From Candidatus Aenigmatarchaeota archaeon (GTDB lineage Archaea > Aenigmatarchaeota > Aenigmatarchaeia > CG10238-14), in the NCBI GenBank assembly GCA_018920345.1, contig JAHLMN010000021.1, positions 1 through 37,817 on the forward strand: a stretch of 37,817 nt of DNA, in the 5' to 3' direction. The notes beneath the pieces are model-generated. The model saw only the letters and a list, made by a program, of their open reading frames with translations. It was not told where the DNA came from and made no database searches. A program made the position numbers and the translations under genes. Below are positions 4,037 through 6,270 of the stretch, piece by piece (the first letter of the stretch is position 1; the number at the start of each line of letters is the position of its first letter).

Positions 4037-4648
4037 ATGCCAATTTTCACTAACATTTTTATAGGAATGGCCTTTAGCATCATAGTGTTTAATCTTTTTT
4101 TTATGTTTACTAGAAAAAAATCATTACCTGTTGCTTATATCTATATCGTAGCTGCTTTAGGTGGTTTTTTATCAATAATTCCAAATTTATTATTATTTTT
4201 AGGTATAAATTTATCAGGTTATACTTGTAATATATTCTTTTTTAATTGTTATTTGAGAGAATTGGATGTTTTAACACTCTCTACAATATCAAAAATACTT
4301 AACAACATAATAGGTGGTATGTCTATAGGTTTGATGTTTTTCGAGTTAGCTTATTTTTATAATAAAAAAGTAAGAGAAGCGCCAAATCTAAAATATTTCT
4401 ATCTTTTTTCTTTCATTAGCATTCTAGTTGCTTTGTTTCCGACATTTTTACGTTTGGTTATAAAATATGAGATGCCTGAACCTATTTGCAATATATTTTT
4501 ATTTAATTGTTTAATAGAAAAGCTTGATCCTGCAGGCTCAGAAGTATTTTCTTTCATATTCTTTTTCTTGTTTTTTATCACAATAGTTATTGTTTCTGTT
4601 ATGATAAAGAGAGAAAAGAAAAATTATATGCTTCCAACTATTGATTAA
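4037..4648 (+). CDS. Polytopic membrane protein with an internal Cys-motif repeat
   Basis: A 203-residue, very hydrophobic protein with about six membrane segments. An open frame continues further upstream, but that part lies antisense to the ABC ATPase gene; ATG 4037 is the first sensible start outside it. Two halves carry the same loop motif, CNIFFFNC followed by ELD near residue 70 and CNIFLFNC followed by KLD near residue 155, each between membrane segments, so the protein probably arose by tandem duplication. The paired cysteines facing one side could form disulfides or bind a metal. No known family is recognised. It converges on and overlaps the last 11 bases of the flavoprotein gene. 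Confidence 0.65.
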   Translation: MPIFTNIFIGMAFSIIVFNLFFMFTRKKSLPVAYIYIVAALGGFLSIIPNLLLFLGINLSGYTCNIFFFNCYLRELDVLTLSTISKILNNIIGGMSIGLMFFELAYFYNKKVREAPNLKYFYLFSFISILVALFPTFLRLVIKYEMPEPICNIFLFNCLIEKLDPAGSEVFSFIFFFLFFITIVIVSVMIKREKKNYMLPTID

Positions 4649-5723
4649 AAAGTAGATCCATATCCAGATTATTTAATAATGGCCTAAATGGTTTTGCTAT
4701 ATTTAAGGATAAAGAGAACAACCAGTTTGGCATAATATGAATTAAATCGTGAAGAAACAAACCTCTTTTTATAGCAGGAGATAATACTTTTTTCCATTTT
4801 TGATCATACTCTTTATTTAAAAATTCTTTATCAAATCTATTCTTTTCTACAGCTAAAAAACAAGATTCGGCAGCAAATTTTGCAGCTATTAAGCCATAAA
4901 TAATTCCACCACCTGAATATGGTTTTACATGAGAAGCAGCGTCACCAACTAACAAAATATTATCTGCTACAGAAGATTTAATCAAACCGTATCTTATAAC
5001 ACCACCCAAAACATCTTTTTTATCATATTCTTGTTTAAACCTTTTTTTAATAAAATTTCTAAAATAATCTACTGCTTTGTTTTTAGCCGCTAATCCAACT
5101 CTCGCCCAATTCTTATTTTCAGGTACAACCCATGCAAAAAAATCAGGAGTTATATCTTTTCCAAACCACAATTCAACTATATTTTCACTAAAATCATCTT
5201 TTATTGTTTCTTGATAACCTATTAAATATTCTTTCGGTTGCTCTATTTTAGCTTTTCTTGCTACTGAGGAGTTTGGACCATCTGCACCTACTAATAATTT
5301 TGTTTTAAAATTACCTGAAGAAGTATGAACCATTAAATAGTTTCCTGATCTTTTAAAATCTTTGAATCTAGTCCCTGTTAATATTTCAGCACCTTTTTTA
5401 ACAGCATTAATAGCAATATTCTTATCAAGTTTATGTCTATCTATAACATAAACGGTTTTTTTTGATTCTAATTCAAGAAAATTACCGTTTTGACTATAAA
5501 ATCTTGCTCTATTGACTTTGTTTATTACTATATCACTTTCTTTTAACCCCGACAGTTGAATAATTCTATGACTGTCTATTCCAGTACATTGTACAGGTAA
5601 ACCAATCTCTTCGTGTTCTTCTATTACTAGGACATTTAAACCAAGAGAAGCAGCTAACTCAGCTGTCTTTCCACCAGCTGGACCAGCGCCTATTACAATT
5701 ACATCATAAATATTTTTTAACAT
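4638..5723 (-). CDS. Geranylgeranyl reductase family FAD flavoprotein
   Basis: A 361-residue FAD enzyme of the geranylgeranyl/digeranylgeranylglycerophospholipid reductase family, which saturates isoprenoid chains of archaeal lipids. The N-terminus has the dinucleotide-binding GAGPAGG (residues 12-18) and an acidic residue ending the second strand (VIEEHEEIG). These are followed by the family's PVQCTG segment. The catalytic-domain signature resembling YxWxFP appears as FFAWVVP near residue 190, and the second FAD motif as LLVGDAASHVKPYSGGG near 260-275. Length is slightly short of the typical 390-450. It acts at the membrane surface. It is transcribed divergently from tRNA-Trp. A plant-like chlorophyll role is excluded by context. 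Confidence 0.85.
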   Translation of the reverse strand: MLKNIYDVIVIGAGPAGGKTAELAASLGLNVLVIEEHEEIGLPVQCTGIDSHRIIQLSGLKESDIVINKVNRARFYSQNGNFLELESKKTVYVIDRHKLDKNIAINAVKKGAEILTGTRFKDFKRSGNYLMVHTSSGNFKTKLLVGADGPNSSVARKAKIEQPKEYLIGYQETIKDDFSENIVELWFGKDITPDFFAWVVPENKNWARVGLAAKNKAVDYFRNFIKKRFKQEYDKKDVLGGVIRYGLIKSSVADNILLVGDAASHVKPYSGGGIIYGLIAAKFAAESCFLAVEKNRFDKEFLNKEYDQKWKKVLSPAIKRGLFLHDLIHIMPNWLFSLSLNIAKPFRPLLNNLDMDLLFNQ

Positions 5724-5733
5724 TTGTAGTTAA

Positions 5734-5741
5734 TTTAAAAG
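5734..5741 (+). promoter_or_regulatory. Candidate TATA box of tRNA-Trp
   Basis: TTTAAAAG is centred about 27 bases upstream of position 5764, just ahead of the mature tRNA 5' end, which is the expected geometry for an archaeal TATA box. No experimental start is known, and AT-rich DNA produces such matches by chance. Confidence 0.35.
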
Positions 5742-5765: not shown

Positions 5766-5885
5766 GGGGCTGTCATATAACCAGGCTATTATGCCAGGCT
5801 CCAGATCAAGGTTTGTAGATGGAGCGTTGATTTCCAGATGATGAGAAGAAACCTGGTCATCGGGGTTCAAATCCCTGCAGCCCCA
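5766..5885 (+). tRNA. tRNA-Trp(CCA) with a 46-nt intron
   Basis: The acceptor stem pairs GGGGCTG (5766-5772) with CAGCCCC (5878-5884), with discriminator A5885. D stem 5775-5778/5789-5792 has one T.T mismatch, and the loop contains AA and GG. Anticodon stem CCAGG (5794-5798) pairs with CCTGG (5852-5856); loop C32 T33, anticodon CCA (5801-5803), G37 (5804). T arm CGGGG/CCCTG encloses TTCAAAT. The arm is completed only if 5805-5850 is removed, at the canonical 37/38 site. A bulge-helix-bulge fits: bulges A36-G37|A and AA|A38, a central 4-bp helix 5799-5802/5845-5848 with one C.A mismatch, and inner helix TCA/TGA. No CCA tail is encoded. Confidence 0.95.
5805..5850 (+). ncRNA. tRNA-Trp intron, candidate minimal C/D-box guide for C34 methylation
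   Basis: In several euryarchaea the tRNA-Trp intron is a box C/D RNA that directs 2'-O-methylation of C34 and U39. This intron is only 46 nt but keeps part of that design. It has a perfect box C-like RTGATGA (ATGATGA, 5838-5844) and a D-like box TTGA (5827-5830; consensus CTGA) separated by 7 nt, as in an internal D'/C' pair. TGGAGC (5820-5825) is exactly complementary to GCTCCA (5798-5803), the 5' exon around the anticodon. The fifth base upstream of the D-like box, G5822, pairs with C5801, which is position 34. Position 39 is C here, so the second ancestral guide would have no U39 target. Function is inferred from base pairing. Confidence 0.5.
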
Positions 5886-5961: not shown

Positions 5962-6270
5962 TTGGCAGAAAAGAAAAAAACAGAAAATACAACAAAATCT
6001 GACGACAATGTGATATTTGTTGGTAAAAAACCAGCAATGTCTTATGTCTTGGCTGTAATGACACAATTTACAGCCGGTGCAAAAGAAGTTCAAATAAAAG
6101 CTAGAGGCAAGTCCATATCAAGAGCAGTGGACGTTGCCGAAATAGTAAAGAACAAGTTCCTAGGAGATGTTAAAGTTAAAAACATCGAAATAGGAACTGA
6201 GGAAAGAACTGTAGATGGTGGAAATAAAGTAAATGTTTCCACTTTGAGTATTTTATTGGCTAAAGGCTAA
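5962..6270 (+). CDS. albA: Alba chromatin protein
   Basis: A 102-residue DNA/RNA-binding protein of the Alba family, an abundant archaeal nucleoid protein. After a short lysine-rich tail it shows the family pattern [17 protein letters not shown] (about 16-32), in which a lysine in the GKKP loop contacts nucleic acid and is acetylated in Sulfolobus. It continues with [17 protein letters not shown] (about 47-63) and the beta-hairpin region [10 protein letters not shown]. Length is typical. Translation starts at TTG with a strong Shine-Dalgarno sequence. The gene lies between tRNA-Trp and transcription factor B and ends in a hairpin plus T tract, so it is probably monocistronic and highly expressed. 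Confidence 0.95.

Follow-up and report, generated by a model that had tools for sequence, protein, structure and literature searches.

The window analysed here, a stretch of 37,817 nucleotides that is contig 12 of the 0.82-Mb genome of a small archaeon of the Aenigmatarchaeota, carries a tRNA-Trp(CCA) gene (5766-5885), which lies on the forward strand, as do the elements described within it. The gene matches Rfam family RF00005 with 40.1 bits over its whole span and was missed by ARAGORN, which called no tRNA in the window. The 5' exon (5766-5804) comprises positions 1-37, with the CCA anticodon at 5801-5803, and ends with G37 (5804), and the 3' exon (5851-5885) comprises positions 38-73, starting with A38 (5851) and without an encoded CCA. 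The acceptor, anticodon and T stems pair, but the anticodon stem CCAGG/CCTGG closes only across an insert of 46 nt (5805-5850). Both the RF00005 score and the closure of the stems across the insert indicate a tRNA fold with an intron at the canonical 37/38 position, the same place as in the relatives, and the 46-nt tRNA-Trp intron proposed in an earlier sequence-only reading of this DNA is thereby borne out. No Rfam family matches the intron element itself. The tRNA gene is flanked by an Alba-like gene (5962-6270) and, on the minus strand, by a divergent gene (4638-5723) resembling FAD-dependent reductases, both named by eye. A TTTAAA sequence at 5734-5739, about 29 nt upstream of the tRNA gene, is a possible TATA-like promoter element.

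The intron begins with a spacer (5805-5819) that is variable within the genus and separates the 5' splice site from the hexamer TGGAGC (5820-5825). This hexamer is the exact complement of G31-A36 (GCTCCA, 5798-5803) and would represent positions N+7 to N+2 of a guide, since the D box TTGA (D'-type, 5827-5830) that follows sets N+5 on C34 (5801), as the sequence-only reading had claimed and as in the intronic guides of tRNA-Trp. Next come a putative K-loop of 6 nt (5831-5836), which replaces the closing stem of larger relatives, and the conserved core GATGA of a C'-type box (5837-5841). The sequence-only reading had paired TTGA with a perfect C box, ATGATGA, at a distance of 7 nt. Both motifs are present, but the latter (RUGAUGA, 5838-5844) is an overlapping alternative register that reads ATGATAA in G001 of the same genus, whereas the C box that is homologous by its distance from the D box in the relatives is GATGA, 6 nt after the D box. 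Within the window's genus this gap measures 6 nt, and most members of the order have one of 2-7 nt. A comparison of four congeneric species shows 11 variable positions, 4 in the spacer and 5 in the K-loop, with no substitutions in the guide, the D box or the GATGA core.

The proteins of a box C/D particle are all encoded in the genome, which contains genes for L7Ae-family proteins, Nop5 and fibrillarin, the latter two adjacent to each other on contig 8. There is also one match to the EndA family of splicing endonucleases. A second L7Ae-family match (L193; G000 contig 6, 5717-5977, minus strand) appears to contain one in-frame TGA.

The window intron holds only one D-C pair, rather than the C/D plus C'/D' set of an archaeal box C/D sRNA, and inspection by eye revealed no conserved C box upstream of the guide that could belong to a classical second box pair. 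Likewise, a second guide to position 39 is absent from the intron, which has no room for one after the C box, where just 3 nt precede the splicing strand. No more than 3 nt follow the C box in nearly all short introns, which supports the one-guide reading and the claim that only the C34 guide remains, whereas larger introns can hold a second guide to position 39. In several clades, such larger introns contain a second segment that pairs across the 3' splice site. In G039 (L058) the segment UGGUAU is followed by TTGA, with N+5 on C39, and in several Iainarchaeota introns the pairing runs across the 3' splice site for 7-8 nt. Such a segment for the region of position 39, likely a remnant of a two-guide form, was seen in L058, L108, L135, L139, L155, L156 and L173. 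Position 39 of the window gene is indeed a C (5852), but the suggestion that this accounts for the missing second guide fails, because C39 is a reported or predicted target elsewhere: Cm39 is listed for archaea in a review, and in P. furiosus methylation of C39 has been predicted.

To place the element in a broader context, we gathered tRNA-Trp genes mostly with patterns for the 5' exon only, plus a similarity search with the tRNA region. The 5'-exon pattern matched in 54 of 122 genomes that were at least 75% complete, a few matches not being tRNAs, and the detection was thus incomplete, leaving genes with unusual 5' halves unsampled. For the Aenigmatarchaeota, 55 distinct tRNA-Trp genes were parsed, 3 of which are intronless and 52 contain an intron of 26 to 204 nt. 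Every one of these introns (52/52) carries a guide whose N+5 position falls on C34, together with a D-like box of the form NNGA at an unvarying distance. Relatives that keep the bulge-helix-bulge but have lost the guide had been named in advance as the pattern that would speak against a guide; in the Aenigmatarchaeota we find the opposite. Together with the presence of the protein genes, the invariant spacing of guide and box supports the C/D guide interpretation. A strict version of the motif occurs in 75 of 89 sampled introns versus 0.33 expected from dinucleotide shuffles, but some of these sequences were selected by the motif itself, and the 52/52 is therefore the cleaner figure.

With all clades taken together, none of the 81 guide-bearing introns deviates at N+5, N+6 or N+7, and N+3 and N+4 are conserved in 80 of them, while the D box is always NNGA at a fixed distance from the guide (TTGA or CTGA in 65). 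Covariation of guide and target, which had been proposed as a check, was found for the pair 31:N+2 (P 0.003) and was not significant for 37:N+8 (P 0.19). The covariation is weak overall because the anticodon is invariant. As for intron length, the expectation that known tRNA-Trp introns measure about 100 nt or more holds for H. volcanii (103 nt) but is not general, with a median of 65 nt and about 62 nt in T. kodakarensis.

The relatives also provide clues to the structure of the element. Where the gap between the D and C boxes is at least 8 nt, it is closed by a covarying stem, of which the second pair is formed in 42 of 44 cases versus 19.5 in shuffles, and the third in 31 of 34 versus 15.8. 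Such an arrangement is a K-turn capped by a hairpin. Within the order of the window, the closing stem has shrunk to a short loop, giving the K-loop form that reviews describe for archaeal C'/D' motifs, an assignment that for the window itself is made by homology.

The target and the guide may also form a structural unit. In three relatives with introns of only 26 nt, the spacer is 3 nt (G014 and G020) or 4 nt (G022) long, and target and guide can be drawn as one short hairpin (GCUCCA-GAAA-UGGAGC, GCUCCA-GCAA-UGGAGC and GCUCCA-GUUUA-UGGAGC). In the 60 introns with spacers of at least 7 nt, the hairpin extends into the spacer by a mean of 2.30 bp, compared with 1.30 bp for shuffled spacers, often taking in exon G37, and the mean folding z is -1.70 over 62 introns. 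In G010, G011 and G008, the stem sequences are GCAC/GUGC, GUAC/GUGC and GUAC/GUAC, with one pair being C-G, U-G and U-A, respectively. Since spacers either shrink to 3-4 nt or, when longer, extend the helix, selection seems, in most relatives, to have favoured the guide-target duplex as a single intramolecular hairpin that bridges the 5' splice site. The window's own genus departs from this pattern: its spacer of 15 nt contributes no stability (z 0.48 to 1.05, extension 0), and it is thus exactly here that action in cis is least supported.

A bulge-helix-bulge can be drawn for the window intron, with 3-nt bulges (AGA and AAA), an inner helix of 3 bp between UCA (5806-5808) and UGA (5842-5844), and a central helix in which the strand GAAG (5845-5848) pairs with C32, U33 and C35, leaving C34 opposite A5846, where the canonical motif has a central helix of 4 bp between two 3-nt bulges. 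The inner helix UCA/UGA is replaced by UUA/UAA in G001, which is one compensatory change, and in the Aenigmatarchaeota the inner helix lies only slightly above the null expectation (1.81 versus 1.56 of 4 pairs, P 0.018). The sequence-only reading had held that splicing and guide folding exclude each other because the C box overlaps the inner helix. The conserved GATGA does not overlap it, but the exclusivity still holds, since C32-C35 take part in the guide duplex as well as in the central splicing helix. Folding energies of the isolated RNA do not decide between the guide and the splicing state, and the predicted minimum for the window RNA is a third fold that corresponds to neither. C34 is left unpaired by the splicing strand in 53 of 81 guide-bearing introns versus none of 8 guide-less introns (Fisher P 0.0004), a contrast that is confounded by phylogeny because all 8 guide-less introns come from one phylum. 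These patterns are consistent with a splicing helix whose weakness at C34 is maintained to let the guide pair first.

We hypothesize, with a probability of roughly 0.7, that the intron contains a reduced box C/D element with one guide and a single K-loop, which probably acts in cis and methylates C34 before the intron is removed. In the precursor that still contains the intron, UGGAGC would pair with G31-A36 across the 5' splice junction, while the D box, the 6-nt loop and the C box would form a single K-loop bound by L7Ae. The 2'-OH of C34 could then be methylated by Nop5 and fibrillarin, after which the guide duplex would open, CUCC would pair with GAAG and the splicing endonuclease would cut. 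Methylation should precede splicing because the duplex must open before CUCC-GAAG pairing and cleavage can occur. An ancestral second guide, directed at position 39, and its boxes would have been lost. We infer from the sequence patterns that C34 is methylated, that this happens in cis rather than in trans, that one K-loop is sufficient and that the events follow this order. A stronger version of the hypothesis would be that these introns form a class of their own, with one guide and a single K-loop, that acts strictly in cis, packs a complete methylation unit into 26-46 nt and has a splicing helix mismatched at C34 so that splicing waits. This version we put forward only tentatively, as it seems to us to have somewhat less than an even chance of being correct.

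We also considered the possibility that the same guide acts in trans, as reviews report from experimental results for the tRNA-Trp guide of H. volcanii. The excised and circularised 46-nt intron would then methylate other tRNA-Trp molecules, its single D and C boxes enclosing a guide-bearing arc of about 30 nt; the tRNA-Trp intron of T. kodakarensis is known to accumulate as a circle. However, target and guide would be joined by no more than about 6 bp, and a circle of 26 nt leaves little room. Furthermore, a guide that acts in trans needs neither the distance of 3-4 nt between target and guide nor the spacer-stabilised hairpin, exon G37 included, that is seen in most relatives. We therefore regard this explanation as unlikely, although it is the best of the alternatives.

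Far less probable is that the segment complementary to the anticodon serves as a splicing or folding element, which holds the anticodon loop until the body of the tRNA has folded, and is no methylation guide at all. In favour of such an element, the duplex bridges the 5' splice site and is in competition with the splicing helix, but this role requires neither an invariant offset to the D box nor a covarying stem in a D/C K-turn, and the guide-less introns of the Iainarchaeota mostly show strong inner helices instead. An equally improbable explanation is that the guide is an inactive relic of a two-guide ancestor, for although the second guide is gone, the spacer of the window's genus is unstructured and guide-less introns exist in the Iainarchaeota, the guide, the D box and the GATGA core are free of changes within the genus, in contrast to the drifting spacer and loop, and the guide is retained in 52/52 introns.

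The guide and the intron have nevertheless been lost in some lineages. Among the Aenigmatarchaeota, the tRNA-Trp gene is intronless in G056, G059, G099 and G132. The Iainarchaeota, the phylum with both G156 and the Diapherotrites genome G158, has guide-bearing, guide-less and many intronless tRNA-Trp genes, and the guide-less introns (L162, L164, L166, L167, L170 and L171), several of which have strong hairpin-like ends, show that the guide can go before the intron does. A search with one pattern for stand-alone replacement guides in intronless or guide-less genomes found none in G099, G132, G178, G199, G205 and G207, and in G183 a weak match with a mismatched guide, which is no convincing replacement. 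These losses agree with the dispensability reported for H. volcanii. Many tRNA-Trp genes of the Aenigmatarchaeota and some of the Nanoarchaeota also appear to contain a second intron, which follows TTCAAA or TTCGAA within or close to the T-loop (L059, L070, L076, L077, L081, L082, L084-L086, L088 and L089; also L099, L112, L125 and L139) and is absent from the window's genus.

The current view is that archaeal C/D guides require two box pairs and a dimeric particle. Single-K-loop guides across a whole phylum, in introns down to 26 nt, would offer a natural way of testing how little RNA suffices for the machine. The findings also bear on the question of whether modification is what keeps introns in tRNA-Trp genes, given that in the sampled Aenigmatarchaeota the intron is either found with the guide or is lost altogether.

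Three known systems resemble the element in the window. Introns of tRNA-Trp are known from reviews to guide the formation of Cm34, and the euryarchaeal pre-tRNA-Trp guides, as in H. volcanii and Pyrococcus sR50, share with the window the tRNA, the intron, the C34 target, the logic of the boxes, the N+5 rule and an intronic guide that pairs with the anticodon region of its own tRNA. These forms, which we compared by description, have two guides, for C34 and position 39, and reported lengths of 62-103 nt, whereas the window form fits a single guide and a single D/C K-loop into 46 nt, and the three shortest relatives have 26 nt. Stand-alone archaeal box C/D sRNAs are similar in that their C'/D' motif is a short K-loop, and the genes for L7Ae, Nop5 and fibrillarin are present, but these RNAs contain both C/D and C'/D' and usually two guides, and archaeal guides are described as normally needing the second box pair, whereas the window intron has only the D'-C' half. 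The tRNA-Met intron of N. equitans, which has a reduced DPANN genome, is another case in which a tRNA intron contains C/D elements, but it is 66 nt long, resides in another tRNA and has a GC-rich hairpin. The element in the window resembles the intronic guide known for C34 of pre-tRNA-Trp in its mode of action and most likely shares its descent from one design, but it lacks the position-39 guide and the second box pair, which makes "reduced one-guide variant" the most fitting name.
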